Positions 45,557-61,514 of a DNA stretch of 64,000 nt are shown one piece after another (position 1 is the stretch's first letter; every line of letters begins with the position of its first letter). The DNA comes from Sphingobium arseniciresistens. GTDB lineage: Bacteria > Pseudomonadota > Alphaproteobacteria > Sphingomonadales > Sphingomonadaceae. The translations under genes and the position numbers were made by a program. The notes below the pieces were generated by a model, which made no database searches, was not told the origin of the DNA, and saw nothing but the letters and a program-made list of their open reading frames with translations. The DNA is taken from contig JARFNK010000013.1 of assembly GCA_029167225.1 (NCBI GenBank), forward strand, positions 62,001-126,000. The letters run 5' to 3'.

Positions 45557-47296
45557 TTAGAAGGCATCGCTCTCCATCGCCATGATCGGCGCTGCACCAA
45601 TCGCGATGTTCGCCGCCAGGGATTGAGCGCGAGGCAGGATTTTCTGTGCGAAGAAGTCGGCCATGATCATCTTGTCGCGAAGATGCGGTGTCAGCGCTGG
45701 CTCGGCTGCCACTGCCATGCGCGTCCACATCCATCCCATGACGACAAGGGCGAACAGGTGGAGGTAATCGACCGCTGCGGCGCCGACCTCTTCGATGTCT
45801 GCCCCGATCAGTGACGGCGTCACCTGCTGCAACTGCGCCAGCGCGTCGGATGTCCGCGCTGCGATGAGACGATCGCCCGCGCCCTCGAGGTCCGCAGCGA
45901 TAAGCGCGAACAGGCGCTGGACAGCCTCGCCGCCAGCGGCCGGCAGCTTGCGGCCGACCAGATCCATCGCCTGGACGCCGTTGGTGCCTTCGTAGATCTG
46001 GGCGATGCGCGCGTCGCGAACATATTGCTCCATCCCCCATTCGCGAATGTAGCCGTGCCCGCCGAAGACCTGCTGCGCCTGAACGGCGCTCTCGAAACCG
46101 AAGTCCGTGAACGATGCCTTGATCACGGGGGTGAGCAATGCCACCAAAGCGTCCGCCTTGGCCCGTTCACCTGCCTCAGGATGTCCGTGCGACCGGTCCA
46201 GTTGCAAGGCCGTCCATCCAGCCAAGGCACGGCCCGCCTCGACGAATGCGCGGATGTTCAGCAGCATCCGTCGCACATCGGCATGTTCGATAATGGCCAC
46301 GGGGCCAGTGCCTCCGGTCGAACCGCGACCTTGGAGGCGATCCTTGGCATAAGCTGCGGCTTGCTGATAGGCGCCGCCTGCGACGCCCAGCCCCTGGATC
46401 CCGACGAACAGACGTTCCGCGTTCATCATCGTGAACATCGTGGCCAGGCCGCGATGCGCTTCGCCAACCAGCCAGCCTGTCGCATCATCATAATTCATCA
46501 CGCAGGTCGGCTGAGCGTGAATCCCCATTTTCTTTTCAAGCGCGCCTACGGACATGGTGTTCCGCACCGTGAAGCCACCTTCAGTATCGGGCAGGAACTT
46601 GGGCACCAGGAAAAGACTGATGCCTTTTACGCCGGGCGGTGCATCGGGCAGGCGCGCAAGCACCAGATGGATGATATTGCCGCCAAAATCATGATCGCCC
46701 GACGAGATGAAGATTTTTGTGCCGGTGACGGCGTAACTGCCGTCGGGCTGGGGCGTGGCCTTGGCCTTGAGCAATGCAAGGTCCGTTCCCGCGCCGCTCT
46801 CGGTCAGCGCCATGGCGCCGGTCCACTCGCCGCTCACCATGGGCGCCAGCCAGATCTGCTTCAACTCATCCGAGGCATGCGCGACGATAGTCTCACTGGC
46901 GCCACGCGTCAGCCCGGAGAAAAGCCCGAACGAGAGGTTCGTGGCAGACATCATCTCGTCGACCCACAGCTGCAGGATGAAGGGCAGGCCTTGTCCTCCA
47001 TGGGCGGGGTCAGCCGAAAGGGAAGGCCAGCCGGCCGCAACGAAGTCGCGATACGTCTCCGCGAACCCTGCGGGGGTGTGAACCTCTCCGTCGATCAACC
47101 GACTGCCTTGCTCGTCTCCCTCGCGATTGATCGGATGGAGGCGGTCCGTACACATCCGACCTGCTTCCTCCAGCACCGCAAGCGCAAGATCGATTTCCAC
47201 ATCCTTCCCGAGTTCGGACATCGCGCCATCAAAGCCGAGCACTTTTTCAAGGAGGAACCGGTAATCTTCGATCGGCGCGGCATAGCTTTGCATCAT
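45557..47296 (-). CDS. Acyl-CoA dehydrogenase, long DmdC-like form
   Basis: A 579-residue flavoprotein longer than the usual ~390-residue dehydrogenases, because of an extended N-terminus and a C-terminal helical addition like DmdC (3-methylmercaptopropionyl-CoA dehydrogenase). Signatures are GAMALTESGAGTDLALLKAKA, GGHGYIREWGMEQYVRDARIAQIYEGTNGVQAMDL with the catalytic Glu in IYEGTN. It would introduce the alpha-beta double bond into an acyl-CoA. ATG 47296 is favoured by GGGAG nearby. It lies 213 bases downstream of the CoA-transferase gene on the same strand. That 213-base gap holds nothing I can support. Confidence 0.9.
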   Translation of the reverse strand: MMQSYAAPIEDYRFLLEKVLGFDGAMSELGKDVEIDLALAVLEEAGRMCTDRLHPINREGDEQGSRLIDGEVHTPAGFAETYRDFVAAGWPSLSADPAHGGQGLPFILQLWVDEMMSATNLSFGLFSGLTRGASETIVAHASDELKQIWLAPMVSGEWTGAMALTESGAGTDLALLKAKATPQPDGSYAVTGTKIFISSGDHDFGGNIIHLVLARLPDAPPGVKGISLFLVPKFLPDTEGGFTVRNTMSVGALEKKMGIHAQPTCVMNYDDATGWLVGEAHRGLATMFTMMNAERLFVGIQGLGVAGGAYQQAAAYAKDRLQGRGSTGGTGPVAIIEHADVRRMLLNIRAFVEAGRALAGWTALQLDRSHGHPEAGERAKADALVALLTPVIKASFTDFGFESAVQAQQVFGGHGYIREWGMEQYVRDARIAQIYEGTNGVQAMDLVGRKLPAAGGEAVQRLFALIAADLEGAGDRLIAARTSDALAQLQQVTPSLIGADIEEVGAAAVDYLHLFALVVMGWMWTRMAVAAEPALTPHLRDKMIMADFFAQKILPRAQSLAANIAIGAAPIMAMESDAF

Positions 47297-47509
47297 GTTG
47301 CTCCCGTGGGCTTGCAAGCCCCATTGGCGTTTATTCGGTTGATGGCGGCGATCCGCGGCGCCAACATTACCGTGCTTCGTGCCGGCTTTCCGGCAGTAGC
47401 CGGCCAGGCGGTACAGTGAACGATCCGTTGGCTGCAACTGAAGGAGATTGCGGTCAACCCAGGCGGCAGGTCGCAACGATCGATCTTCATCGATCGCCAC
47501 GCGCGCGCC

Positions 47510-48751
47510 TCAGCCTATTGCGCCGGCAGCCTTGATTTCTGCCAGTTCTTCGGCTTTCAGCTTTAGCAGTTCGACGAGAACTTGTTCCGTATGCTCGCCC
47601 AGTTCCGGCGGATCGCTCAGTTCGCGCAGAGGCGAACCCATGTAACGCATGGGGCTATTGGGAAGGGCGACCATGCCGGCTTCGGTCATTCGGTCCGTCA
47701 GGAAGCCGCGTTCCCGCAGATGCACGTCGTTCAGCAGTTCCATGACGTCCCGCAGGGGAGCGGCGGCGACCTGATTCTTGTCGCACAGATCGCAGATCTG
47801 TTCACGGGTCTGGGTCTTGGTCCAGGCTGAAACAGCGGCCGTGATCTCTTCGATATGCGCCACGCGCCCACTGAGGGTCCGCAGGGTTTCGTCCGCCGTG
47901 AGGTCTGGGCGGTTCATCGCTTGGGTCAGCTTGAGCCAATGATCGTCATTCGCGCAGACGATCGCAACCCAGCCATCGGAGGTCTCAAAAGTATCGAACG
48001 GGACGTAGGAGTCTGCGACATGCCGATTTCCAGTCCGCTCGGGAACGCTATTGCTTGAGTAGACATGGCCGATCGATGGCAGCATCGGAGCGAATACCGA
48101 TTCAAGCATCGACAATTCTATCGCGCGGCCAAGGCCGGTGCGCTCACGCTCGAACAGGGCCGACACGATCGCGCCATACAGATGGGCGCCGGACATGAAG
48201 TCGGCGACAGGAGCCCCCGCCTTGAGCGGACGGCCGCCCGCTTCGCCGGTCGTGCTCATGAAGCCGCTCATGGCCTGAATCGTCAGGTCGAGCGCGCGCT
48301 TGTTGGCATATGGGCCGGTGGCGCCGAAACCGGACGCGGACGCATAAATGAGCCTGGGATTGATCTTCAGCAGATCGTCCGGGCCCACGCCAAGGCGGGC
48401 CATCACGCCGGGTGCGAAATTTTCCACCAGCACATCGGCAGACTTGCACAATTCCTTCAGCAAGGCCTTGCCCTGCGATGTCTTGAGGTTCAGCACGATG
48501 CCGCGTTTGCTACCGTTGAGGGCCCGAAACGGATAATCGCCGTCACGCGCTCGCTTGCGGGTAACGTCCCCCGTCGGCGGTTCGACCTTGATGACATCGG
48601 CACCGGCCATTGCCATCAGAAATGTGGCGTAGGGGCCTTGGAAGACATGGCCAAGATCGAGAACTCTTACTCCTGATAAAGGGAGTGGCCGTTCCATTTT
48701 TGGGTCAATCGGCATGGTGTCCGTGTAATTATCTTTGGCCGTATTTTCCAT
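47510..48751 (-). CDS. CaiB/BaiF family CoA-transferase
   Basis: A 413-residue class III CoA-transferase. Marks are LPLSGVRVLDLGHVFQGPYATFLMAMAGADVIKVEPPTGD, LNLKTSQGKALLKEL, ENFAPGVMARLGVGPDDL and GPYANKRALDLTIQAMSGFMS with the catalytic Asp in ALDLTIQA. It swaps CoA between an activated acid and the pathway's acid without ATP. An IclR-type operator pair lies about 210 bases upstream. It and the acyl-CoA dehydrogenase should handle the acid arising from the alcohol and aldehyde oxidation genes. Confidence 0.9.
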   Translation of the reverse strand: MENTAKDNYTDTMPIDPKMERPLPLSGVRVLDLGHVFQGPYATFLMAMAGADVIKVEPPTGDVTRKRARDGDYPFRALNGSKRGIVLNLKTSQGKALLKELCKSADVLVENFAPGVMARLGVGPDDLLKINPRLIYASASGFGATGPYANKRALDLTIQAMSGFMSTTGEAGGRPLKAGAPVADFMSGAHLYGAIVSALFERERTGLGRAIELSMLESVFAPMLPSIGHVYSSNSVPERTGNRHVADSYVPFDTFETSDGWVAIVCANDDHWLKLTQAMNRPDLTADETLRTLSGRVAHIEEITAAVSAWTKTQTREQICDLCDKNQVAAAPLRDVMELLNDVHLRERGFLTDRMTEAGMVALPNSPMRYMGSPLRELSDPPELGEHTEQVLVELLKLKAEELAEIKAAGAIG

Positions 48752-49397
48752 TTATAGAGCGTCCATATCTTGTCTGTTCGTGAAACAGGCTCGGTGTGAT
48801 CTTCATTGTTATCGGAAATAATTTGATGTGTTGAGGATTGTTACATCACTTATGGCATGATCTTGGATTTTGCGTCTTCAGCATTTGCCTGAATAGGCGC
48901 GCCACACATGACGAACGGCGCGAGCTGCATGCCATCTGAACCAACCTCCTCGCCAATTGTTCGTATATAAGTACCAAATGTCGGATATACGTCATTCTTG
49001 CTCAATATGCCAGAACTGTCAATGGGACAGTTTTGCAGATATCGCGGCAGCTGAAGGGCAGCTTGATGTGCTTCAGGCCTTTCCATTTCATCGAAGCCTT
49101 CTCGCGACGATCGTTACGTGCGCTCTACGGTCGTCAGGAAACTGACGCTGAAACGCCGGATCGGCCTACACGGTGACGCGAGCAGCCGCTGTAGCGAGAT
49201 TCTCCACGAGTTGCAGGCCGCTACGGGTCGGGTTGGCGGACCAAGGCCTGAACGCAAATATTGTGCATTCCGCGATTATGCGCCGTTCCATGCTGGTCTT
49301 TCCGGCACGGGATTGAGGGCGTTCTCATGCTTCATCGGGGCGCTACCATCTTGCCGCGTTCTGGCCCGCATTGCCGTCGGATCTGGAGCGCAATGCG
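48752..49397. other. 646-base gap with a regulatory site
   Basis: No gene supported on either strand; the short frames lack conserved patterns. The one notable feature is the operator pair at 48959-48991. The region 48770-48850 is AT-rich and suits a promoter for the CoA-transferase. Confidence 0.5.
48959..48991. promoter_or_regulatory. Paired palindromic operator (IclR-regulon type), upstream of CoA-transferase
   Basis: GTTCGTATATAAGTAC at 48959 (core CGTATATAAG at 48962) and core CGGATATACG at 48982, exactly 20 bases apart. The arrangement is shared with six other promoters of the cluster. Confidence 0.55.
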
Positions 49398-50933
49398 TCA
49401 GCGTGCATTGAGCGCATGCACGACATCCGCCGCGAATTTCTGAATGCGGAATGGCGACCCGTCATCGAAGCCCCGGCGCACGATGACGATATCGGCGGAC
49501 GGAATGATCACGGCATATTGCCCCATTGCCCCGAAGGCGGAGTAGGCGTCGGGTGGCAGTCCTTCCATGCCGCCAAACAGCCAGAACTGCGCGCCATAAC
49601 CTGCATCGCCGCCTATGCTGGGTTTGACCGGCTGGGCCGGTGCCGGGGTCGAAACATAGCGACTCCAGTCGGCCGGCAGCAGTTGTTCTCCCGCCCATTG
49701 CCCATTCGACAGGTAGAGCAGGCCCAGTCGCGCAAAATCCCGTGCGGTGCTCCAGCACTGGCCAGAAACGATGAAGTCGTTGTTCCAGTCCGTCTCTACG
49801 ATCGTGCGCGTCATGCCGATCTTCCAGAGCAACTGCTCGTAGGGAAAGGCGGGATAGTGTTGATCGTCGGCAAAAGCGGTTCTCAGGGCCCGCATCGCCA
49901 GATTGGTATCGGTGCCGGCGTAGACAAATCGCGCGCCCGCTTTTGCGTCCACCATGTTGCGCGCGCCTGCTTCCCCGATCGAGGCACCCGATCGATAGAT
50001 TTCGTGCTGGGGGTCTTGCGCTCCGTCGCTGTAAAGGCCGCTCGCCATGTGAAGCAGGTCATTCACGGAGATGTCGCCACGCGGATCACCCGGCGTGCGC
50101 CATTCCGGCAGAACCGCCTTCCGTTTCAGATCGATTAATCCCTTCCGCACGCCGACACCGACCAATGTGGCGCCCAGGCTCTTGCACATGGAATTGGTCC
50201 GCGCCGCGACATGCTCCGAAAAGCCATGTTGATAGCGTTCGGTGACGATCTTGCCGCCCTTCAGGATCAATATCCCCCAGCTGACCCCGCCATAGAGCCC
50301 AGCTTGGTCGCGAAATGCCTCGGCAATGAGAAGGTCAAGCGCCTTTTGGCGGGAACGCGGCAGGTGCTGGATGGCATCCCTGTCACCCATGGGCCATGCC
50401 TTGTCGTCCATGCGGGGCGCCATGAGCGTGGGACGGAACAGGCCTTGGGCAAGCTCATGGGAAGCGCCGATCGGCAGCATGGTGCAGCCCATGCCGCTCC
50501 GATATACGGCGATCCTTGGCGGGAGCAGATCGTCGAACCGCACCGATACCGATTTTGCCTGTTCGTCAACCTTGATTTCGAGCTTTCGCTTGGCCGCGTC
50601 GGGGGCGTTGGCGCTGATAGTCTGATCGACCAGCGCCCTGGGCGCTTCTGTCGCAAAATATCCAGAACATATATGGAGCGCCCGCAGCCCTGCGTCCTGC
50701 GCGAGGCTATGCCGGTCAGTGCCCGGGGCCCGCGCCGCGGTGGCGGAAGGGGACAACGCCGTCAGCGCCAATGACAATAACGCGCTGGATCGCGCGAGGC
50801 CATGTTTCAGCGACTTGGTGGACGAACGAGGCGCGGCGCGCCCGACAGCATGGCATCGTTCTTCAGGCCGAGTGAAAGAGCGGGACGCATCCTGAAGGCT
50901 CATCCGGGAGGTTTCCGCTTCCCGCTGTCGCAT
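49398..50933 (-). CDS. Exported serine hydrolase (class C beta-lactamase fold)
   Basis: A 511-residue protein with an N-terminal signal-like segment at about 45-65 (ARSSALLSLALTALSPSATA). The serine beta-lactamase fold is shown by TNSMCKSLGATL (SxxK), YAGTDTN (YxN-like) and HMASGLYSDG. These enzymes in catabolic clusters usually act as esterases. The start is ambiguous (50933 or 50903), with no clear ribosome site, and an unusually long N-terminal stretch before the signal region. An operator pair lies 60 bases upstream of 50933. Confidence 0.78.
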   Translation of the reverse strand: MRQREAETSRMSLQDASRSFTRPEERCHAVGRAAPRSSTKSLKHGLARSSALLSLALTALSPSATAARAPGTDRHSLAQDAGLRALHICSGYFATEAPRALVDQTISANAPDAAKRKLEIKVDEQAKSVSVRFDDLLPPRIAVYRSGMGCTMLPIGASHELAQGLFRPTLMAPRMDDKAWPMGDRDAIQHLPRSRQKALDLLIAEAFRDQAGLYGGVSWGILILKGGKIVTERYQHGFSEHVAARTNSMCKSLGATLVGVGVRKGLIDLKRKAVLPEWRTPGDPRGDISVNDLLHMASGLYSDGAQDPQHEIYRSGASIGEAGARNMVDAKAGARFVYAGTDTNLAMRALRTAFADDQHYPAFPYEQLLWKIGMTRTIVETDWNNDFIVSGQCWSTARDFARLGLLYLSNGQWAGEQLLPADWSRYVSTPAPAQPVKPSIGGDAGYGAQFWLFGGMEGLPPDAYSAFGAMGQYAVIIPSADIVIVRRGFDDGSPFRIQKFAADVVHALNAR

Positions 50934-50992
50934 ATAGAGCAATTCAGACCCTCCCCCGCTGTTGCCATTTCGGCAATCATGCTTGATATATT

Positions 50993-51025
50993 GTGCGTAT
51001 ATAAGAGCGAAATGCCGTATTTACG
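50993..51025. promoter_or_regulatory. Paired palindromic operator upstream of serine hydrolase
   Basis: Core CGTATATAAG at 50996 and core CGTATTTACG at 51016, 20 bases apart. The spacer bases (AAG..C.AAATG.CG) are also alike those at 48971-48983. It lies 60 bases before the serine hydrolase start. Confidence 0.55.
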
Positions 51026-51202
51026 CGACCGGAAAAATATTGTCTCGTCAACGCTTATCCTATTCGGTTCGACCTCGTCCAGCACAAACTAAAGGTGGTT
51101 CCTGCGCAATTGTCCTTGTATTTCGGGAACGCAGGCCGCCTTTTGTGATGCTGCGGCCCATCGCTGCACTCGATTGACATTATGGACAATGCCTGCAATG
51201 AT

Positions 51203-51235
51203 CGATAATACGTCCATAAGTTCATAAATACGGAC
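51203..51235. promoter_or_regulatory. Paired palindromic operator upstream of iclR
   Basis: GTTCATAAATACGGAC at 51220 (core CATAAATACG at 51223) with a second core CGATAATACG at 51203, 20 bases apart. It is about 355 bases before the IclR start, so it may instead serve the divergent serine hydrolase. The rest of the 657-base gap 50934-51590 holds no gene I can support. Confidence 0.45.
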
Positions 51236-51590
51236 GATTTTAGGGGTGCCCAGGACGGTGTTCGCTCGCCGACGAAAGGGGAGGATTATGTCCAGTCAGT
51301 TTTCCAAGATCTCGGCTTATGAATTTGTTCCGCAGCAGGCTGGATTCTGGCGGCGGGCATGATCGCGAGACTGCAATCTCGCCTGCTGCCCGTCGGGGTC
51401 GCTATCGGGATCCATCGCGGGGGCGCTTTATTACTCTGACAGTGGCGGCAGGTTAATCCTGCTCTTGGCTTGCGTGACTGTCGGCATTCTGATGCGCGCA
51501 ACCCGTCTTCGATATCTCGCTCTCGGCCTTTCGTCATGCTAGGCTAGGGGATTGTATAAAGCGGAGAAGAAGTATTTGTCTGACAAGCAT

Positions 51591-52367
51591 ATGGATATGT
51601 TGCCGGAATCGGGCGCTGCAGTTGGCAGGCAACCTAGCCATCATCGCACGGTCGATCGCGTGACCCAGATATTGGAAGAGGTCGTCTATCGCCCCGGAAT
51701 GACATTTGCCGAGCTCGCCCGCACATTAGGCGCGCCCAAAAGTTCGGTGTACGGCTTTGTGCAGGGCTTGCTCGCGACCGGCTGGCTGTATGAAAATGAC
51801 AGGCAATTCTACCTGGGGCCTGCTGTCCATGGCCTGACTCTTGCCAGCGGTCATGTACGCGCCGGGATCGTCAGCCACGAAAGGCTGGCTGAACTGCATG
51901 AGGAGACGGGGCTGGCCGTATTCCTTGGTGTGGAGGCCGGGGACCACCTGATTTATATTGCCGAAGCCGGTGGGGATTCCATTGCCGACATCGAGGCGCG
52001 CCGCAATATCCGTCGTACGCTCCTCGCCACGGCGACGGGCAAGGCGTTGCTGGCGGCCAAGCCTCAGGATGAACTCGACGCTTTCCTCAGGCGCCATCGG
52101 CGCACCGAGCCCGAGGCTGTCGAGGCGTTTCTAAGCGAGTATGAAGCGATCAAGAGCACTGGCGTTGCAACCAATCTCCGGCTCGGTGGCACCCGATTGG
52201 CGATAGCGACGATCCTGCCGGGCCAGTCCGGCCGAAGCCCGGCCGCCGTGGCGCTCGTTGGTTCGGCGACAAAGGTCAAGCCGAAGGTTCGCAAATTGTC
52301 GGAGTTGCTCGTCGAAAGGGCGGCACTTTGGGCGCGCCGAAAGGTGAGCGCACGGGAGGCGATTTAG
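51591..52367 (+). CDS. IclR-family transcriptional regulator
   Basis: A 258-residue regulator with an N-terminal winged HTH (SHHRTVDRVTQILEEVVYRPGMTFAELARTLGAPKSSVYGFVQGLLATGWLYEN) and a C-terminal IclR effector domain (HERLAELHEETGLAVFLGVEAGDHLIYIAEAG...RRTLLATATGKALLA). IclR proteins bind short palindromes as dimers or tetramers, fitting the paired cores in this cluster. ATG 51591 is used; TTG 51576 with GGAG upstream is an alternative. It is the only one-component regulator among 45-64 kb. Confidence 0.9.
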   Translation: MDMLPESGAAVGRQPSHHRTVDRVTQILEEVVYRPGMTFAELARTLGAPKSSVYGFVQGLLATGWLYENDRQFYLGPAVHGLTLASGHVRAGIVSHERLAELHEETGLAVFLGVEAGDHLIYIAEAGGDSIADIEARRNIRRTLLATATGKALLAAKPQDELDAFLRRHRRTEPEAVEAFLSEYEAIKSTGVATNLRLGGTRLAIATILPGQSGRSPAAVALVGSATKVKPKVRKLSELLVERAALWARRKVSAREAI

Positions 52368-52422
52368 GCTCCGCGGATCAGTCGGCGCGACCACCCGGTT
52401 TCTGTAATGTGGCTGTTTTGCG

Positions 52423-52462
52423 GCCAGCCAGCATTCAGGGCGCACCCGTTTGCCTGGCTGGC
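52423..52462. terminator. Hairpin between convergent iclR and MFS genes
   Basis: GCCAGCCAG and CTGGCTGGC form a perfect 9-bp stem with a 22-base loop between the two stops. On the minus strand no T-tract follows, so it is only a candidate two-way terminator. Confidence 0.4.
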
Positions 52463-52475
52463 TGCAATGCTCTGC

Positions 52476-53765
52476 TCATTCGGCCGCGCCGGCTATGGCG
52501 GCTATGTCCATGTTCGCGTTCTTGCGGGTCCGCGTCCCGCTGATCGCATACCAGAAGCTGGCGGCTGCGATCAGGTTGAAGCTCAATGTAGCACCCAGGG
52601 CCAGGCTGACGGAATCCCGCCCGCCAAGATAATCTGAAATCATGCCTGTGAGCAGAGGGCCAATTGCCGCCCCTACCATATTGGCGAACAGTTCCTGCAT
52701 GGCTGCGACCGAGCCGCGCATATTGCTGGGCGTCGCCGTCATAATCGCGGCCTTGGGCGCTGCATAATGCGTTCCCAGTGTCAGGCCGAGGGCAAACACG
52801 AGGATGGCAGCGATGGCGGGGGAGGGGGCAAGGGCGATCCCGAACGCCACCGGCACAGACAGGGTCAGCGCGCATGAGGGGACGATCCACAATCGATCGA
52901 CGCGGCCCTTGGCGATCCAGTCGCCCAGGAATCCTGAGAGCAATGCGGACGCGAATTTCATGACGCCGGCGGCAATGCCGACGATCAATCCGGCATGGGC
53001 GAGGCTGAATCCCTGCTCACGAATGAGGATCGGCGAAATCCAGATCCATACGGAGGCGACATTCATTGCAACGATCGCCAGCCCGATCGTGTTGAAGAAC
53101 ACTGGCCGAGACCCGATGAAAAATTTGGTTACTTCCCACATGGAAGCAGCGGCACCGGCATTTTCTTCGCCTTCTGCCGCGCGTGCCGGCTCGCGAAAGC
53201 GTGCCCACATCACTGCGGCCAGGATGATCCCCGGCAAGCCGACGATGAAGAAGACCGCCCGCCATCCCCAATGCTGTGCGACATAGCCGCCGATGACAAA
53301 GGCAAGGCCCGTTCCTATAGCGAGACCCGAATATACCAGTCCCATGGCACTGGCTCGCTGATTGACCGGAAATATGCTGGCGACGAGCGACTGCGTACCT
53401 GCCGACGTGGACGATTCCGCGGCTCCGACGACGACGCGCATCAGGAAAAGGTGCCAATAGCCTGAAGCGAGAGCGCCGAGCGCGGTGACCGCGCTCCAAA
53501 GGGCCAGCATCGCTGACAGGAATTTGACTCGGTTCGTCCGATCCATCAGCCAGCCTACGGGCAGGATGCAAATCGAAAAGCCGATCGCATGAGCTGTGCC
53601 GGCTATGGCGCCGAGTTGGGAGTCGCTAAAGTGGAATTCATGGCGAATAGGCTCGATGATCACACCGATAACGTAGCGATCGAGGGAATGAAGTGTGTAA
53701 ATCGCCAACAGAATGATCGCGGCACCCCATCGGCCATTTTTCCATATGCTCGATTTCTCTGACAT
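52476..53765 (-). CDS. MFS transporter (ACS-type, probable acid or aromatic importer)
   Basis: A 429-residue, 12-helix major facilitator protein. Marks include LHSLDRYVIGVIIEPIRHEFHFSDSQLGAIAGTAHAIGF, GWLMDRTNRVKFLS (loop 2-3 motif) and RVVVGAAESSTSAGTQSLVASIFPVNQRASAMGLVYSG. This resembles the anion:cation symporter group that imports organic acids. A paired operator lies 123 bases upstream, so expression should follow the catabolic genes. Confidence 0.85.
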   Translation of the reverse strand: MSEKSSIWKNGRWGAAIILLAIYTLHSLDRYVIGVIIEPIRHEFHFSDSQLGAIAGTAHAIGFSICILPVGWLMDRTNRVKFLSAMLALWSAVTALGALASGYWHLFLMRVVVGAAESSTSAGTQSLVASIFPVNQRASAMGLVYSGLAIGTGLAFVIGGYVAQHWGWRAVFFIVGLPGIILAAVMWARFREPARAAEGEENAGAAASMWEVTKFFIGSRPVFFNTIGLAIVAMNVASVWIWISPILIREQGFSLAHAGLIVGIAAGVMKFASALLSGFLGDWIAKGRVDRLWIVPSCALTLSVPVAFGIALAPSPAIAAILVFALGLTLGTHYAAPKAAIMTATPSNMRGSVAAMQELFANMVGAAIGPLLTGMISDYLGGRDSVSLALGATLSFNLIAAASFWYAISGTRTRKNANMDIAAIAGAAE

Positions 53766-53887
53766 TTATTGCATCCTCTCGCGCATCCAGCGAGTCCATG
53801 AGCATGAAATGACCAAGGCTATTCATGCCAAATCGTCCGCGTTCGCTTCACCTGGTCCGCCCAGAAACTGGGAACGAAACCCTAAAA

Positions 53888-53920
53888 GTTCTTATATACG
53901 CATGAAGAAACGTAATTGCG
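53888..53920. promoter_or_regulatory. Paired palindromic operator upstream of MFS gene
   Basis: GTTCTTATATACGCAT at 53888 (core CTTATATACG at 53891) and CGTAATTGCG at 53911, 20 bases apart. It lies 123 bases before the MFS start. Confidence 0.5.
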
Positions 53921-54210
53921 TATTTATAGGTTGAGCAGGAAGGCGAGGTCAAGGCATGTTTCGCCGGATTATCCGTCGGCGATAGAGCGGGTTGCCCTTT
54001 TCATCCCATGCTTCAGGAACAGTTGGAGAGCATGATGGCGCGCGACCACTCTCAGGAGTATTCTGACGCATCATCATTGGGAGATATGCGCAATTTGAAG
54101 ATCCGGTTCCTGCGCTGGAGCATCATCGATACTGGGTGACGCAGGGGTTAAGGCCGAACGCCATGCGCTGTAATCGGAAAAAGCTTGACCAAAATTTCGG
54201 CAAGTCTGAT

Positions 54211-54246
54211 AATCGTAGATACGTACCATAAATCGTATATGCGAAC
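54211..54246. promoter_or_regulatory. Paired palindromic operator upstream of MaoC gene
   Basis: AATCGTAGATACGTAC at 54211 and AATCGTATATGCGAAC at 54231, 20 bases apart; each matches the consensus GTTCGTATATACGAAC at 12 and 13 of 16 positions. It lies about 200 bases before the MaoC start. Confidence 0.55.
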
Positions 54247-54448
54247 CAAAGGAATGCTGGGATTGAAGTGCATATGCTTGGCGAAATCGCCCATCAGGCG
54301 GTGTGGGGATGTCTCAAGACAGATGCCGTTCGTCATGCTGAGGGGCATGTGATCTTTCGGCGCGAACATTCGAGGCCGCGAAAATTGTGAAAATCCGCCA
54401 CTTGAACAAGATGAGCAAAATGTGGCGATAGGAAAGGCGAGATAGAAA

Positions 54449-55594
54449 ATGTCTGAAACTGTACAAATTACCAAGGAGCTTGCGCAGGGCAAGTTTACCG
54501 ACGAACTCCTTGATCACATGCGCGGCATGATCGGGACGGAACTGCGGACCGATTCATGCGTCAACAACGAATATGCCACGCGCATCGCTATCCTTCGCTT
54601 TTGCGAGGGCATCGGTGACGACAATCCGCTTTGGACCGATCAGAATTATGCTGCCGGTACGCGCTACGGCCAGCTGATTGCGCCGCCGAGCTTCATTTTC
54701 GCATGCATGGCTTCGGTGCAGTTTGGCTGGCCTGGCCTTGGCGGTTTTCATGCCGAGACCACGATGGACTTCTTCAAGCCCATCAAGGAAGGGGACAGGA
54801 TTACCGCGAAGGTCGTGTTCGACGGTTTCGATGGCCCTACCGAAAGCAGCTTCGCCGGTCGTCGTATCAAGGACTATCTGCGACAGGAATATTATAATCA
54901 GGACGGTGAACTGGTGACCCGGTTCATTTGCTCCCGGATGCGTTTTGAGCGCACCGAAATGCAAAAGCGCCGCGAATCGCGCAAGATTGAACTGCCTCAT
55001 CCGTGGACCGATGATCAGGTGGCGGCGATCGAGGCCGATATCCTGGCGGAAACGCCTCGCGGTGCAACGCCGCGCTACTGGGACGATGTCGAAGTCGGCG
55101 ATGAGCTGGATCTGATCACCAAGGGCCCCATCGGCCTTACCGATGAGATTGCGTTCGTCTCTGCCGGCGCTGCGCCGATACCCAGGCTTGCCGCCCACAG
55201 GGTCTCGCTCAAGCGCTATCACAAGCATCCGAAATGGGCGTTTCGCGATCCGAACACCCATGCCCTCGAACCGGTCTATTCCGTCCACTATAACGACTAT
55301 GCAGCCAGCTTGCAGGGAGCCCAGGCTGCCTATGACGTGGGCGTCCAGCGGACATGCTGGCAAATTCATTCGCTCACGCACTGGATGGGTGACGATGCGT
55401 CGCTCAAGCGTGCCACCTCGCAATATCGTTCGCATGTCTATCTGTCGGATGTCGTGCGGCTCGGTGGACGCATCGAGTCCAAGGAGATCGACGAAGATGG
55501 CGACGCAGTCGTGCATGTCACGACATGGGCGACCAACCAGCGCGGCGATAACGTCATGCCTGGCACTGCCATCGTGAAGCTGCCCCGCCGCTGA
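54449..55594 (+). CDS. MaoC-like / FAS1-dehydratase-like double-hotdog protein
   Basis: A 381-residue protein with two hotdog halves. The first (about 20-170) has NEYATRIAILRFCEGIGDDNPLWTD (hydratase-2 like helix) and GQLIAPPSFIFACM. The second (about 200-381) has RYWDDVEVGDELDLITKGPIGLTDEIAF and a closing WATNQRGDNVMPGTAIVKLPRR. It probably hydrates or dehydrates an enoyl-CoA, next to the acyl-CoA dehydrogenase step. No ribosome site is obvious, although GGAAAGGCGAG precedes the start. Confidence 0.8.
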   Translation: MSETVQITKELAQGKFTDELLDHMRGMIGTELRTDSCVNNEYATRIAILRFCEGIGDDNPLWTDQNYAAGTRYGQLIAPPSFIFACMASVQFGWPGLGGFHAETTMDFFKPIKEGDRITAKVVFDGFDGPTESSFAGRRIKDYLRQEYYNQDGELVTRFICSRMRFERTEMQKRRESRKIELPHPWTDDQVAAIEADILAETPRGATPRYWDDVEVGDELDLITKGPIGLTDEIAFVSAGAAPIPRLAAHRVSLKRYHKHPKWAFRDPNTHALEPVYSVHYNDYAASLQGAQAAYDVGVQRTCWQIHSLTHWMGDDASLKRATSQYRSHVYLSDVVRLGGRIESKEIDEDGDAVVHVTTWATNQRGDNVMPGTAIVKLPRR

Positions 55595-56060
55595 GCGTCG
55601 GTCGCTTAGACAGAAGCCAACCTGCGGGGCATTGCCGCGCAGGTTGGCTGACGGCATTTGGAGCCATACTGGTCCCCAGGTCTATTGGATCAAGGATCAT
55701 CGCGTTGGAGATCGTCGTCGGTGATACATGCAGCATGTATGTCGATCGGCCGCGTCGCTTGCAGCGTCTCGAAGCCGCAGTGGCTCGCGGCAGCCAAGCA
55801 CTCAGGGCTGACGAATATTGCTGCTCTCATCGCGCGAGGACAGGCGCGAGCGTTGGGGCCAAGTCCTGCCTGTTTCAACCGGCACGACCGCTGATCTCTT
55901 GGTAATTTGCCTGCTCAGTTTGAAGAGCGCAGTGACCCGGGGAGCGTGGAGCAACGGTGTCAACAGGATGACGCCGGGACTATCCGATCCTTGAAGGAAC
56001 TGTTCGTCGGCCTGGTTTGAAGACGTGATCAATTCTAATGTGCGAGGCGCAATTTTTGCC
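55595..56060. other. 466-base gap with a 17-bp palindrome
   Basis: No gene supported. It contains ATACATGC-A-GCATGTAT at 55724-55740. No clear copy of the paired cores was seen, though the next gene belongs to the cluster. Confidence 0.4.
55724..55740. promoter_or_regulatory. 17-bp perfect palindrome
   Basis: ATACATGC and GCATGTAT flank a single central base. It lies about 320 bases before the next start. Its regulator is unknown and its sequence is unlike the repeated operators of this cluster. Confidence 0.35.
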
Positions 56061-57236
56061 ATGAATACGCTATCCAGCTACCAGCATGTCACGCCGCCTT
56101 TGCGGGTATTCAGTGGCGCGCAATGTCTTGGCACATTTGAGCGGGAATTGAAGCGCCTGGGCGTCGAGCGCGCCATGATCTTCTGTGGTCGTACGCTTGG
56201 GCGTCCAGGGTCTCCGCTCGATCTCGTTCGAGCTACACTGGGAGATCGTCTGGCGGGCGTGTTTTCGGGCGTTCGCGCGCACAGCCCGGTGCCGGATGTC
56301 GAAGCGGCAGTGCAGGCGCTACGCGACGCGGGAGCCGATGGCGTAATTGCGGTGGGCGGCGGCTCGGCGATCGTCACGGCGCGCGCCGCCAGCATCCTTC
56401 TCGCGGAAGGTCGTCCCGCTGCCGATCTGGCCACTTCGCGCACCGATGATGGCAAGCTCTTCAGTCCAAGGCTTGAAGCATCCAAGATTCCGCAGATCAT
56501 CATCCCGACCACGCCGACGACCGCGATCGTGAAGGCGGGATCGGCGATATTCGACCCGGTCGGTAAAGTCCGCCTGGCGATGTTCGATCCCAAGACCCGC
56601 GCGCAGAGCGTGTTCATTCACCCGGATATGATCGCGTCAGCGCCTGATTCCCTCGTCCTGAGTGCAAGCTACAATGTTCTGGCCATGGCAATCGAAGGGC
56701 TGATGTCCCTGGGTGGCGATCCGATCGCAGATGGGCAGCTGATGCATGCGCTGCGGCTGGTGGCCGAAAGTTTCAGCGCTGGAACTGCTCTGGATGAGAG
56801 CACGCGCGGCGATCTGATCATCGCGGCGATGCTGTGCGGGCAGGGGACCGATCACTCCGGCGCCGGCGCGGTTACCGTGCTGGGCCATGCCGTAGGCGTG
56901 CCGCATAATGTGGAGAATGGTATCGTCAATGCGATCGTCCTGCCGCATGTCATTGCGTTCAATGCCAACGCCGCGCCTCGCGGCCTTGCCAAGATCGGTG
57001 CGGCGCTTGGTATATTCGAGGGCGATGCCGAGGCCCTGCTGGGTGCCGTCCTGGTTCGTCTTCGCGCGCTGCTGAAAGGTCTGGGAGCGCCCGCGCGATT
57101 GCGGGATGTGGGCGTGCCCACAGAAGCGCTGCGCGATATTGCAGAACATGCGATGGATGACTGGTTCCTTCGCGGCAATCCCCGCCCGGTAGCAGGCCCG
57201 AGTGAACTGGAGCAACTTCTGGGAGAAGCCTGGTGA
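56061..57236 (+). CDS. Iron-type alcohol dehydrogenase / maleylacetate reductase-like protein
   Basis: A 391-residue protein of the iron-dependent alcohol dehydrogenase superfamily, with a nucleotide loop GVIAVGGGSAIVTARAAS, IIIPTTPTTAI, and the pair GHAVGVPHNVENG. At the first metal pair (usually D-x-x-x-H, as in DALAHAIE) it has SYNVLAMAIEG, so Asp becomes Asn and His becomes Met. The second pair of His residues is kept. It may bind metal weakly or act without it, as reported for some reductases. ATG 56061 is chosen over the GTG upstream, since that start leaves an odd tail. Confidence 0.78.
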   Translation: MNTLSSYQHVTPPLRVFSGAQCLGTFERELKRLGVERAMIFCGRTLGRPGSPLDLVRATLGDRLAGVFSGVRAHSPVPDVEAAVQALRDAGADGVIAVGGGSAIVTARAASILLAEGRPAADLATSRTDDGKLFSPRLEASKIPQIIIPTTPTTAIVKAGSAIFDPVGKVRLAMFDPKTRAQSVFIHPDMIASAPDSLVLSASYNVLAMAIEGLMSLGGDPIADGQLMHALRLVAESFSAGTALDESTRGDLIIAAMLCGQGTDHSGAGAVTVLGHAVGVPHNVENGIVNAIVLPHVIAFNANAAPRGLAKIGAALGIFEGDAEALLGAVLVRLRALLKGLGAPARLRDVGVPTEALRDIAEHAMDDWFLRGNPRPVAGPSELEQLLGEAW

Positions 57237-57793
57237 ACGAGGGCAGTGACATAGCCGAGCGGGAAGAACTGCATACGCGGACGATCGAGATGCGTGGGTT
57301 CCGCCGCGCCGACGGGCTATTCGAAGTCGAGGGGAGGGTGATCGATACCAAGCCCTTCGACTATCGTCCACGATCGGGCGAATATGAGGTGCCCAAGGGG
57401 CAGAGAATTCACGACATCACATTGACCCTCGTGCTTGATGAGCGACTGGAGGTGAAGGATGTGCGCACGCACATGCGTTCCACGCCCTATGATATCTGTC
57501 CGGCGGCGGGGTTGGCGATGCGCGCTCTGATAGGGCTCAGGATCGGGCCAGGCTGGAATTCGGAGGCGCGCAAGCGGCTCCTTCCGGCGGAGCGATGCAC
57601 GCATCTGGCCGAGCTGCTCGGCCCCATGGCGACGACCGCGCTACAGGCTTTGAGCGTCATCCGCAGGGATCAGCCCGAACCTGTGAATTCAGCGGGCCGT
57701 CCGCTGAAGATCGACAGTTGTTTCGCCTACAGCGCCGGCCGCGATCTGGTGCGTCGACGGTGGCCGCAATTCCACGAGGATGGCCAAGGATGA
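57233..57793 (+). CDS. DUF2889 family protein
   Basis: A 186-residue cytoplasmic protein matching DUF2889 by HTRTIEMRGFRRADGLFEVEGRVIDTKPFD, the HDITLTLVLDERLEVKDV strands and MRSTPYDICPAA. The family is common in aromatic and alcohol degradation clusters, but its role is unknown to me. It starts at GTG 57233, overlapping the preceding stop (GTGA), so the two products are made in step. Confidence 0.8.
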   Translation: MNEGSDIAEREELHTRTIEMRGFRRADGLFEVEGRVIDTKPFDYRPRSGEYEVPKGQRIHDITLTLVLDERLEVKDVRTHMRSTPYDICPAAGLAMRALIGLRIGPGWNSEARKRLLPAERCTHLAELLGPMATTALQALSVIRRDQPEPVNSAGRPLKIDSCFAYSAGRDLVRRRWPQFHEDGQG

Positions 57794-57817
57794 ATGCGAC
57801 CTTCAAGGGAAATTTCG

Positions 57818-57846
57818 CCGCGCAGATTTTGGGGATTTCTGCGCGG
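57818..57846. terminator. Hairpin between DUF2889 and cupin genes
   Basis: CCGCGCAGA and TCTGCGCGG form a perfect 9-bp stem with an 11-base loop, 25 bases after the DUF2889 stop and 74 bases before the convergent cupin stop. No T-tract follows. Confidence 0.55.
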
Positions 57847-57919
57847 GCTGGATGAAAAGGCGGCCACTGCGCAGAATATCCTGTTCCGACCCGCTCGTGA
57901 CATCGGCAAATAGCGCCGC

Positions 57920-58309
57920 TTAGCTATTATATTCCGCGTCGCTGACCTTGTTCATCCATGTGACAGCGGTCCCGTCCTGCTTCTCGGCGATTGCGACATG
58001 CGCCATGGCGCAATTCGGTGCAGCGCCGTGCCAGTGCCGTTCGCCTGGCTCAAAGAAGACGATGTCGCCGGGCCGGATTTCCTCGACAGGCCCGCCATCC
58101 CTCTGCACGCGTCCATAGCCCGAGATCACGAGCAACGTCTGTCCCAGCGGGTGAGCGTGCCAATCGGTACGCGCACCAGGTTCGAACGTGACGGTCCCCG
58201 CGCTCAGTTCACCGCTCCCTGAAAATCGACCATCGACTCGGGCCGCTCCGGTGAAGTTCGCAGAAGAGGCTGGCTCTGACGGCTGTGATCCTGCGCGTGT
58301 GATCTGCAT
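57920..58309 (-). CDS. Cupin-domain protein
   Basis: A 129-residue single cupin: DWHAHPLGQTLLVISGYGRVQ and GERHWHGAAP supply the metal His residues. The start MQITRAGSQPSEPASSANFTGAARVDGRF is shared with the exported cupin at 38730, but this copy lacks a signal peptide. Start by ATG 58309. A paired operator lies 22 bases upstream, between it and the divergent alcohol dehydrogenase. Confidence 0.85.
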   Translation of the reverse strand: MQITRAGSQPSEPASSANFTGAARVDGRFSGSGELSAGTVTFEPGARTDWHAHPLGQTLLVISGYGRVQRDGGPVEEIRPGDIVFFEPGERHWHGAAPNCAMAHVAIAEKQDGTAVTWMNKVSDAEYNS

Positions 58310-58330
58310 CTTTCTCTCGCTTCAAAAACT

Positions 58331-58366
58331 GTTTGTAAATACGATCTTGTGTTCATATTTAGAACG
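58331..58366. promoter_or_regulatory. Paired palindromic operator between cupin and alcohol dehydrogenase
   Basis: GTTTGTAAATACGATC at 58331 (13 of 16 consensus positions) and GTTCATATTTAGAACG at 58351 (11 of 16), 20 bases apart, upstream of both divergent genes. Confidence 0.5.
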
Positions 58367-58538
58367 AACCCGTTCGAGATCAAGCCTTCTTGCGGCTGGA
58401 CGATTTCACAATGCGACGGCGATCCAGCTCTGTTTGGATCTCGTTCGATCGCTGCGGGCCACAGATGCCGATCAGTATTGTCGCCGGCAGCCTGGGGCGT
58501 CAGCACACCCTCGAGCGTCATCATGGAGAAGATGTTAT

Positions 58539-59669
58539 ATGCGTATGAAAGCGGCGGTTTTGCATGAATTGGGGCTTCCGGTGCCCTATGTCGAGAGCAA
58601 GCCATTCGTGATCGAGGATGTCGACCTAGACGGACCGGGCGATGACGAGGTTCTGGTCGAAATCCACGCGGCAGGGCTGTGCCATTCGGATCTGTCGATC
58701 GTCGCGGGTCTTCGCAAACGCACTCTGCCAACCGTCGGCGGGCATGAAGGGGCGGGCGTGGTCCGTGAAGTCGGCCGAGGCGTGAAGGGGCTCAGGCCGG
58801 GCGACCATGTCGTCATGACGGTCGGGGCTGGATGCGGACATTGCCGGCCGTGTTATGATGGGCGATCGGGGCTGTGCGACGAGATCGTCGCGTCGCGGGT
58901 GCAGGGGGTGCTGCCCAACGGGTCACGACGATTGCATCTGGGAGACGATCCGCTCTTCCACTTCAGCAGTGTATCTTCCTTCGCCCAATACGCAGTCACC
59001 GTGCCGGAGACGTTGGTCAAGATCGATCCGGCTATCCCGCTTGATGTTGCGGCCATGTTTGGATGCGCGGTCGTGACCGGGGTTGGCGCTGTCTTCAATT
59101 CGGCCAAGGTGCGGCCCGGACAGAATGTCGCGATCATTGGCCTGGGCGGTGTCGGGTTCAACGCGGTCATGGCGGCGCGCATTGCTGGAGCGTCGCAGAT
59201 CATCGGCGTGGATATCAACGAGGACAAGTTTGAGCTGGCTCGTGGATTGGGTTGCACTGCGACCCTTTCAGCCAGGGCTCCGAACCTGATCGAGCAGATC
59301 ATGGATCTGACGGAAGGCGGCGTCGATTTCGCCTTCGAAGTGTCCGGGACAAAGCCCGGCGTCGCATCGGCGATCGCGATGACCCGGAAGGCCGGAGAGG
59401 TCGTTTGCGTCGGCCTTGGTTCGGCCAGCGAACTGTATGAGTATAACCATGCATCGCTGGTGCTCAAAGAAACCGTGATCCGCGGATCATTGATGGGCGG
59501 AGGCGTCGCGGCGCGCGACATTCCCCAATATCTGAGGCTTTATCAGGAAGGCCGCTTGCCGGTGGACCGGCTCAAGAGCGGGGCGATCGGTTTTGATGGG
59601 TTGAACGAGAGCCTTGATCTTCTGCATCGCGGTGCCGTGCTGCGACAGATTCTCCTGCCACATGGCTGA
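58539..59669 (+). CDS. Zinc-dependent alcohol dehydrogenase
   Basis: A 376-residue medium-chain dehydrogenase. Catalytic zinc ligands are in AAGLCHSDLSI and GGHEGAG; the structural zinc motif is CGHCRPCYDGRSGLC. The NAD(P) loop is GLGGVGFNAVM. The class (formaldehyde-dehydrogenase-like) oxidises long or aromatic alcohols. ATG 58539 with GGAGAAG seven bases upstream is used. It begins a catabolic run with two aldehyde dehydrogenases and a second alcohol dehydrogenase. Confidence 0.9.
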   Translation: MRMKAAVLHELGLPVPYVESKPFVIEDVDLDGPGDDEVLVEIHAAGLCHSDLSIVAGLRKRTLPTVGGHEGAGVVREVGRGVKGLRPGDHVVMTVGAGCGHCRPCYDGRSGLCDEIVASRVQGVLPNGSRRLHLGDDPLFHFSSVSSFAQYAVTVPETLVKIDPAIPLDVAAMFGCAVVTGVGAVFNSAKVRPGQNVAIIGLGGVGFNAVMAARIAGASQIIGVDINEDKFELARGLGCTATLSARAPNLIEQIMDLTEGGVDFAFEVSGTKPGVASAIAMTRKAGEVVCVGLGSASELYEYNHASLVLKETVIRGSLMGGGVAARDIPQYLRLYQEGRLPVDRLKSGAIGFDGLNESLDLLHRGAVLRQILLPHG

Positions 59670-59788
59670 TGCGGGTCGTCGACAGGGCGGGATGGAATGC
59701 GAGCTTCGGCCATGTTGCATTTTTCCATGACCATTGGCGAGTCCGCTCCGGCCTTGGTTGACTTGCATTTCGCGGGTGCCTATCAAAG

Positions 59789-59821
59789 CATAATTACGCA
59801 CGATGGTTCGTATATAAAAAC
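59789..59821. promoter_or_regulatory. Paired palindromic operator upstream of aldehyde dehydrogenase
   Basis: CATAATTACG at 59789 and GTTCGTATATAAAAAC at 59806 (core CGTATATAAA at 59809), 20 bases apart. It lies 98 bases before the ALDH start. Confidence 0.5.
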
Positions 59822-59918
59822 ATTCTTGAAGAGCGTGCCGCTCCGCTGATGACAGCGGGAGAGCGATTTCGGCTCGCCGAGCTTGGGATAATGTCCCGCT
59901 GCTAGAGGAGATATGCAA

Positions 59919-61406
59919 ATGGATCAGATCGCGACAGTTCGATCGGCTATCCGGCATCCTGACAGGTTTTTCATTGGTGGGCGATGGGTCGAGCCGAGCT
60001 CGGGCAAAATGATCTCCGTCGTCGACTCGGCGTCAGAACAGCCATTCCTTTCCGTTGCCGAAGCGCAGGCGGCCGACATGTCGCAGGCGATTGCAGCAGC
60101 GCGCGACGCGTTTGACAACGGCCCCTGGCCAAGGATGAGCCATGCCGAACGGGCTGGTTACATGCGCGCGCTCGCGGTCGCTCTGCGCAAGCGCGGCGCC
60201 GATATTCGTGAGCTCTGGCCGCGTGAAGCCGGCGCGCTCGCCTCGCTTGCCCAACCCTATACGGATCGTGCGGCAAACGAGTTCGACTATTATGCCGGCT
60301 TTGCCGACACCTATGCTTTTGAAGAATTTCACAAGCCTACCGCCGGCGAATTCGGGTTGCTGGTGCGTGAGCCGGTAGGCGTGGTCGGCGCGATCGTGCC
60401 GTGGAATGGTCCGGTTGTCGCGATCTCGCACAAACTTGCGCCGGCCTTGATCTGCGGCTGTACTGTAGTGCTCAAATCCTCCCCTGAGGCGCCCGGAGAA
60501 GGCCTGATCTATGGCGAGATCGCCGAAGAGATCGGCCTGCCCCCGGGGGTGTTCAATGTCGTGACGGCCCATCGCGAAGTATCCGAAATGCTGGTGACCG
60601 ATACGCGAGTGGACAAGATCTCGTTCACTGGTTCAACCGCGACCGGCCGGCGTATCGGCGCGCTGTGCGGCGAGCGCGTTGCGCGTTGCAGCCTGGAACT
60701 GGGCGGGAAGTCGGCGGCCGTGATCTTGGACGATGCGGATATCGAAAGCGCAGCGGAGGCACTTGCGCGGGCGGAGTGCGCCATCAATGGGCAAGTCTGC
60801 GCGTCGTTGACGCGCATCATCGTTTCACAGCATCGGCACGATGCCTTTGTGGAAGCGCTTTCTGCGTCCTTCTCGCGCGTACGGGTTGGCGATCCCTATG
60901 ATCCGGCGAGCGAGATGGGGCCGTTGGCCACAAAGGTTCAGCATGACAAGGTGCTGGGCTATATCGCCAAAGGCATCGAGCAGGGCGCCCGCCTGGTTAC
61001 CGGTGGCCAACGCCCGGCCATGTTGGATCGTGGTTATTATGTCGAGCCGACGATTTTTGCATCCGTCGCGAGCAATCACGTCATTGCGCAGGAAGAGATA
61101 TTCGGCCCCGTGCTGAGTGTGATGCCAGCGCGTGACGAGGGCGAAGCGGTTCGGATCGCGAACGACACGATATTCGGGCTCAACGCCTCGGTCTTCACGC
61201 CAGATGTCGACCGCGCACGCGCCGTGGCCGCGCAGTTGAGATCCGGCACGGTCGGGCATAACGCTTTCCGCATCGATTTCGGCATCGCTTTTGGTGGCTT
61301 CAAGCAGTCCGGCATCGGACGCGAAGGCGGCACGGAGGCGCTGGCTGGATATACCGAAGCGAAGACGATCATCCTGGATGGGCGACCGGCGAGCTTCAAG
61401 GAGTAA
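59919..61406 (+). CDS. Aldehyde dehydrogenase
   Basis: A 495-residue NAD(P)-dependent enzyme. Catalytic parts are WNGPVVAISHKLAPAL (Asn), SLELGGKSAAVI (Glu) and AINGQVCASLTR (nucleophile Cys). It would turn the aldehyde from the alcohol dehydrogenase into an acid for CoA attachment. ATG 59919 is chosen over ATG 59913 because AGAGGAG lies 8 bases before it. Confidence 0.92.
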   Translation: MDQIATVRSAIRHPDRFFIGGRWVEPSSGKMISVVDSASEQPFLSVAEAQAADMSQAIAAARDAFDNGPWPRMSHAERAGYMRALAVALRKRGADIRELWPREAGALASLAQPYTDRAANEFDYYAGFADTYAFEEFHKPTAGEFGLLVREPVGVVGAIVPWNGPVVAISHKLAPALICGCTVVLKSSPEAPGEGLIYGEIAEEIGLPPGVFNVVTAHREVSEMLVTDTRVDKISFTGSTATGRRIGALCGERVARCSLELGGKSAAVILDDADIESAAEALARAECAINGQVCASLTRIIVSQHRHDAFVEALSASFSRVRVGDPYDPASEMGPLATKVQHDKVLGYIAKGIEQGARLVTGGQRPAMLDRGYYVEPTIFASVASNHVIAQEEIFGPVLSVMPARDEGEAVRIANDTIFGLNASVFTPDVDRARAVAAQLRSGTVGHNAFRIDFGIAFGGFKQSGIGREGGTEALAGYTEAKTIILDGRPASFKE

Positions 61407-61514
61407 AGCCCGGCAAGCCGTGACGGCGACCCCGCCTTAGCCCAGACCGAAAACAGCAAGGCACCCACGTGCCGTTTACGACAAGCGGATAACCGCATGA
61501 ATGGAGAATGCCTG

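Follow-up and report, generated by a model that had tools for sequence, protein, structure and literature searches.

The closest described counterparts of the system analysed here belong to the IclR family of regulators. A survey of the family (Suvorova and Gelfand 2021, PMC8222616) gives GKTYCRYW3-4RYGRAMC as the group 1 consensus; for regulators belonging to 94 orthologous groups it describes tandem palindromes whose centres are 18-22 nucleotides (nt) apart. A second study (PMC13273656) presents PheR of Sphingobium sp. SHPJ-2 as an experimentally shown IclR-family repressor of a phenanthrene degradation operon, with a footprint of 44 base pairs (bp) that spans the operon's transcription start and extends from +23 to -21; TonB genes rise in the PheR deletion mutant. 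Here we examine a 64-kilobase (kb) stretch of Sphingobium arseniciresistens DNA, hereafter the window (C26:62001-126000; the genome comprises 6.6 Mb in 120 contigs), and describe seven paired sites that are very probably operators of the IclR-family protein encoded at 51591-52367.

The original prediction had placed paired cores at seven promoters and read them as an IclR regulon bounding one degradation pathway. We find paired cores at all seven places (7/7) when two 10-mers 20 bp apart must together match CGTATATACG in at least 14 of 20 letters, with at least 6 in each. Exactly seven such pairs occur in the window, identical with those predicted (first cores at 48962, 50996, 51203, 53891, 54214, 58334 and 59789), and all are intergenic; at any other core spacing between 8 and 44 the number of pairs is 0 to 4. 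The seven sites, each supported by its core pair, by a profile score (in bits where given) and by leave-one-out, are as follows.

48957-48993, minus strand: operator 1, before the CoA-transferase gene (spacing 20; 22.6 bits)
50991-51026, minus strand: operator 2, before the serine hydrolase gene
51198-51235, plus strand: operator 3, about 340 bp before iclR
53886-53923, minus strand: operator 4, before the MFS transporter gene
54210-54247, plus strand: operator 5, before the MaoC-like gene (best site, 25.1 bits)
58330-58364, no strand assigned: operator 6, between the cupin gene (minus) and the zinc alcohol dehydrogenase gene (plus)
59787-59823, plus strand: operator 7, before the first aldehyde dehydrogenase gene

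Enrichment over shuffled intergenic sequence, the check named with the original prediction, is clear: the 3,167 bp of intergenic DNA in the region hold 7 pairs, against a mean of 0.037 and a maximum of 2 in 1,000 dinucleotide shuffles, and shuffles of the whole window (n=60) give a mean of 0.4 pairs and a maximum of 2. Single CGTATATACG cores with up to two mismatches number 21 in the window, with 9.5 expected. Because the core was derived from the same seven sites, a leave-one-out test was added, in which each held-out site scores 19.0 to 36.0, values reached by none of 63,322 positions outside the seven. The sites and their spacing are thereby established by computation.

Aligned on both strands, the seven sites give the consensus TGTTCGTATATACGAACNATNGTTCGTATATACGAACA, a 38-bp double palindrome of four half-sites in alternating direction; its symmetry is built in, since our profiles include both strands of every site, and its middle becomes NNNN once sites from relatives are added. 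Each operator would thus comprise two imperfect 16-bp GTTCGTATATACGAAC palindromes, whose centre-to-centre distance is exactly 20 in 7/7 sites and so lies within the 18-22 nt of IclR tandem operators. The site consensus first proposed holds as a consensus, GTTCGTATATACGAAC, but none of the 14 palindromes matches it exactly: individual boxes share 3 to 8 of the 8 half-site letters, and no site is perfect. The group 1 palindrome is likewise matched by the both-strand consensus except at its outermost G, and only imperfectly by single sites.

Motif class and 20-bp spacing are thus like those of the published group 1 tandem operators, whereas the inner letters of the even-length subgroup (NGTYCRAW4TYGRACN in the survey) differ from the window consensus. 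The operators of PcaU, PobR and HmgR, as described in the survey, have three boxes in the same alternating direction, compared with four in the window, where the promoter-side outer box is usually weak in this genome. In the middle of a 20-bp tandem site there is, in addition, a pair of the group 2 kind, GAAC-N4-GTTC. PheR offers the likeness of an IclR-family repressor in a sphingomonad acting at a site over the start of a degradation operon; it differs in the minimal core reported in PMC13273656, GCAACG, and in its phenanthrene operon. TtgV (PDB 2xrn/2xro), which the survey cites for tetramer binding, is a family member weakly similar in sequence to the window protein (E 9.3e-6); it differs in regulating efflux pumps.

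Similar places occur elsewhere in the genome, which was scanned with two profiles whose E-values are rough: R1, built from the seven window sites (150 of 193 first-look candidates scored), and R2, built from the R1 sites plus those of relatives (150 of 195 scored). Among the candidates scored, R1 returns the seven and C26:156771 (22.2 bits), C26:156510 (16.1) and C65:6716 (15.3), with no other at E<=10, and R2 returns 13 places at E<=5, all on contigs C26 or C65 and six of them outside the window. Ten of these 13 had been used to build R2. The other three, C26:141983, C65:6845 and C65:11084, had not; a simple matrix built on the window's seven sites scores them 20.4, 18.8 and 20.6, compared with at most 13.6 at other places among the top four listed for five stretches scanned, and we regard these weaker sites as candidates only. 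On C26, the outlying places are some 16 to 31 kb past the right end of the window. Two units stand near those at 156.5-156.8 kb, one of MFS, amidohydrolase and SDR genes and one of carboxymuconolactone-decarboxylase (CMD)-like, hydrolase and hydroxyisobutyrate-dehydrogenase-like genes; a TonB receptor gene follows C26:141983, and the C65 neighbours encode a Fer2/FAD oxidoreductase, a PQQ dehydrogenase and a CMD-cupin protein. Because three recurrences of the operator and three weaker candidates fall outside the window, the proposed pathway boundaries are wrong, and the predicted set of controlled genes is larger than first supposed. Contigs C65 and C26 may be neighbours, since sites of one regulon occur on both and the last C26 site is about 6 kb from the contig end. 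After a candidate operator on C65 comes a short frame (L032:6900-7208) that resembles an aldehyde dehydrogenase N-terminus by eye and is possibly a remnant.

The predicted operators share a position relative to -35-like hexamers, here listed with matches to the hexamer and the gap to the first core.

49017-49022, minus strand: TTGACA, operator 1 (6/6, gap 25)
51046-51051, minus strand: TTGACG, operator 2 (5/6, gap 20)
51174-51179, plus strand: TTGACA, operator 3 (6/6, gap 23)
53947-53952, minus strand: TTGACC, operator 4 (5/6, gap 26)
54185-54190, plus strand: TTGACC, operator 5 (5/6, gap 23)
59758-59763, plus strand: TTGACT, operator 7 (5/6, gap 25)

Twelve orientations were counted in this genome, namely the seven window operators (operator 6 in both directions), two operators on stretch L031 and two on L032; the TonB receptor row stands outside this count and C65:11084 is not in that table. 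In nine of the twelve, the gap from the end of TTGACN to the first core is 20-26 bp. With mononucleotide shuffling of the 60 bp upstream, 0.39 are expected, and nine was reached in none of 2,000 shuffles. At relatives' sites (n=11), a hexamer of at least 5/6 is present in 8, with gaps of 25-29. A consensus scan for sigma-70-like promoters shows a weak excess, 8 against 4.9 in shuffles (s.d. 2.2), and three of the eight abut operators 1, 3 and 5. This promoter position, also established by computation, puts the operator over the -10/start region, an arrangement that favours repression, and the regulator is likely a repressor. Overlap with the -10 element is also the likely reason for the weak promoter-side outer box, which is weaker than the gene-side outer box in 11 of 12 sites of this genome with an assigned direction.

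The regulator scores above the IclR-family domain cut-offs (PF09339, 36.6 bits against 22; PF01614, 44 bits against 24), but far below those of the PcaR/PcaU/PobR subfamily (TIGR02431, 47.8 bits against 284.75) and of BhcR (NF045644, 57.4 bits against 350). Aligned to TM0065 (1mkm) in the numbering of PMC8222616, its recognition helix carries Pro27, Lys28, Ser29, Ser30, Tyr32 and Gly33. The window motif is even-length, and even-length IclR motifs show, according to the survey, a strong preference for Ser30 and a weak one for Gly33. The helix K-S-S-(V/I)-(H/Y)-G is present in 15/15 aligned rows, window included, with the preceding position variable, and is absent from a paralogue of 26% identity. 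The protein is rare, found at E<=1e-60 in 2/397 genomes of the bacterial family and 2/398 of a phylum draw, with its own genome counted in each; the predicted operators stand before iclR and neighbouring genes.

We collected 13 loci with an IclR relative and searched 10 of the genomes whole, omitting L007, L009 and L010, which are short contigs of metagenome-assembled genomes (MAGs). Their IclR homologues are 54-69% identical, and R1 matches at E<=0.5 occur in 9/10. In all 10 IclR-homologue genomes examined, the MaoC orthologue has a similar site 12-26 bp ahead of its first aligned residue, two of these sites being weak: the genome-wide search finds the site in 8/10, and a local search gives 13.4 and 12.0 bits in G402 and G406, 12 and 20 bp ahead of that residue. 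MaoC and IclR are on separate contigs in G398 and G401. Spacing 20 is best or joint best among 14-30 in 9/10 genomes. Homologues of the genes at the distant sites (CMD, hydroxyisobutyrate-dehydrogenase-like, amidohydrolase and Fer2) are also found near the IclR homologue of some relatives; in S. natans the Fer2 homologue has a weaker paired site ahead of it. As a family control, R1 at E<=0.01 matched in 0/148 other family genomes, under stricter filters and with the inclusion of S. natans not evident. Conservation of the sites is in this way established by computation. In S. natans the IclR and MaoC genes are both present twice (G171:C6:587573-627415), with the IclR genes about 30 kb apart. 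In an Azohydromonas genome, a single contig holds seven matching places within 116 kb (G402:C9:113653-229724), perhaps a large scattered regulon, and the two IclR homologues of this genome at E<=1e-40 sit on other contigs. In S. arseniciresistens itself, a MaoC paralogue of 73% identity (G000:C77:166804-167934) is without an operator site.

Motif class, spacing, recognition helix and conservation in IclR-bearing genomes thus speak for the IclR regulon as first proposed, its role as a pathway boundary apart, and we consider the predicted link between sites and IclR well supported by computation. Several observations weigh against it. The cluster is inherited as a whole, which confounds the IclR association, and because this co-inheritance limits what association can tell, we go no further than very probable. 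Among the 13 relative loci, just 8 gave pairs in the core-pair scan; the MaoC sites of G402 and G406 fall below the genome-wide threshold of E 0.5 and were found by local search alone; and the Oceanicola MAG, which has the most distant IclR (54%), has a core-pair score of 12 at spacing 20, no better than at other spacings. In the protein, Arg and Thr at positions 1 and 2 of the helix-turn-helix are not among the even-length preferences given in PMC8222616. Operator 3, about 340 bp before iclR, is far for simple autoregulation. Box order is opposite at C65:6716, and in relatives, where the operator is slightly further downstream, the promoter-side outer box is the weaker one at 5 sites, the stronger at 2 and on a par with the gene-side box at 4 (n=11). 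Finally, three of the twelve orientations lack a -35 hexamer: C65:6716 and both sides of operator 6, neither of which has a match of 5/6; and the TonB receptor row has 4/6 at gap 18.

The missing hexamers at operator 6 and C65:6716 would suit an IclR protein that binds these operators as an activator, or as activator and repressor, and the family includes activators and dual regulators according to PMC8222616. We consider this unlikely, since in nine of twelve orientations the operator lies downstream of the -35 element and over the -10/start, where blocking is favoured. A more distant alternative has another regulator in or near the cluster binding the sites, with IclR a mere fellow traveller: both the sites and IclR have been passed on along with one set of genes, so that association alone is indecisive, and the region holds LysR, TetR and LacI genes and some unannotated frames. 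It is made very improbable by the palindrome and tandem spacing, which are as published for IclR proteins, and by the recognition helix, conserved together with the sites; moreover, the relative loci, which had been selected by IclR, contain no homologue of the LysR, TetR or LacI protein at 1e-12. That the pairs are chance or an AT-rich promoter pattern selected by eye, as a consensus taken from the same sites and a merely twofold excess of single cores might suggest, is ruled out by the shuffles, the own-genome scan and leave-one-out, and is countered too by untrained sites in this genome and in relatives and by the family control.

On the reading of IclR as a repressor, palindromes 20 bp apart would allow two dimers, a tetramer, to occupy one face of the DNA. 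The operator starts at or just after the -10 element at most promoters and spans the transcription start, so a bound protein would block RNA polymerase. A pathway metabolite would release the protein, and release would co-induce the regulator together with uptake, the oxidation of alcohols and aldehydes, CoA activation and a branch resembling beta-oxidation. Beyond the window, the regulon would take in the MFS/amidohydrolase/SDR unit, the CMD-like unit and, on C65, the periplasmic Fer2/FAD oxidoreductase, with the TonB receptor and two further C65 places as weaker candidates. More tentatively, and at rather less than even chances, we suggest that this rare protein represses an undescribed alcohol- or ester-to-acyl-CoA pathway through at least 10, perhaps 13, modules of TTGAC, about 20 to 26 bp and an operator; that operators in this genome consist of three good boxes and a weak promoter-side outer one; and that the three-box and tandem operators of the family are one four-box design from which the box clashing with the -10 element has been lost.

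The genes beside the seven sites are those named in the original prediction, and the region reads as follows.

45557-47299, minus strand: acyl-CoA dehydrogenase (Pfam), possibly one unit with the CoA-transferase gene if the two are cotranscribed
47510-48751, minus strand: class III CoA-transferase (PF02515)
49398-50906, minus strand: serine hydrolase, beta-lactamase family (PF00144), frame open to 50942
51591-52367, plus strand: IclR-family regulator (PF01614, PF09339, recognition helix); another possible start is an in-frame TTG at 51576
52476-53765, minus strand: MFS transporter (PF07690)
54449-55594, plus strand: MaoC/FAS1-like dehydratase (Pfam), target with operator kept in relatives
56025-57236, plus strand: iron-containing alcohol dehydrogenase (Pfam)
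57233-57793, plus strand: DUF2889 protein (PF11136)
57920-58309, minus strand: cupin protein (PF07883)
58542-59669, plus strand: zinc alcohol dehydrogenase (Pfam)
59919-61406, plus strand: aldehyde dehydrogenase 1 (PF00171), first start 59913
61497-63008, plus strand: aldehyde dehydrogenase 2 (PF00171)

In the core-pair scan of the window, the iron alcohol dehydrogenase/DUF2889 pair and the second aldehyde dehydrogenase gene have no operator of their own. Between operator 3 and iclR lies a 24-codon frame with a strong ribosome-binding site (51289-51363), possibly a leader peptide or a remnant.

These genes suggest a pathway in which an alcohol or ester would be converted to an acid, activated with CoA and broken down in a beta-oxidation-like manner. 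An NCBIfam scan of 22 protein entries found no enzyme at an equivalog cut-off except a cupin-CMD protein on C65 (146.9 with the mandelonitrile lyase model, cut-off 140); a TonB receptor passed a subfamily cut-off, and the nearest solved structures indicate enzyme classes only. A literature search for a matching cluster, DUF2889 included, gave nothing fitting among the papers listed. Gamma-resorcylate-type and resin-acid pathways were considered and dropped because the annotated proteins included no dioxygenase. A plasmid origin was also set aside: nothing in the plasmid collection closely matches the 11-kb region, and just one plasmid record, from Paracoccus, matches IclR at E<=1e-40, with 47% identity.

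As regulation, the arrangement is ordinary for the IclR family. The mechanism is known in kind, because the survey already gives the motif class and the tandem arrangement of about 20 nt, and PheR an example of a repressor; the additions are this member together with its gene list and promoter geometry. Tying an uncharacterised regulator to a defined operator would list scattered genes of one pathway, some of them tens of kb away or on another contig, and such a defined gene list may offer a cheap route to the substrate of the pathway.

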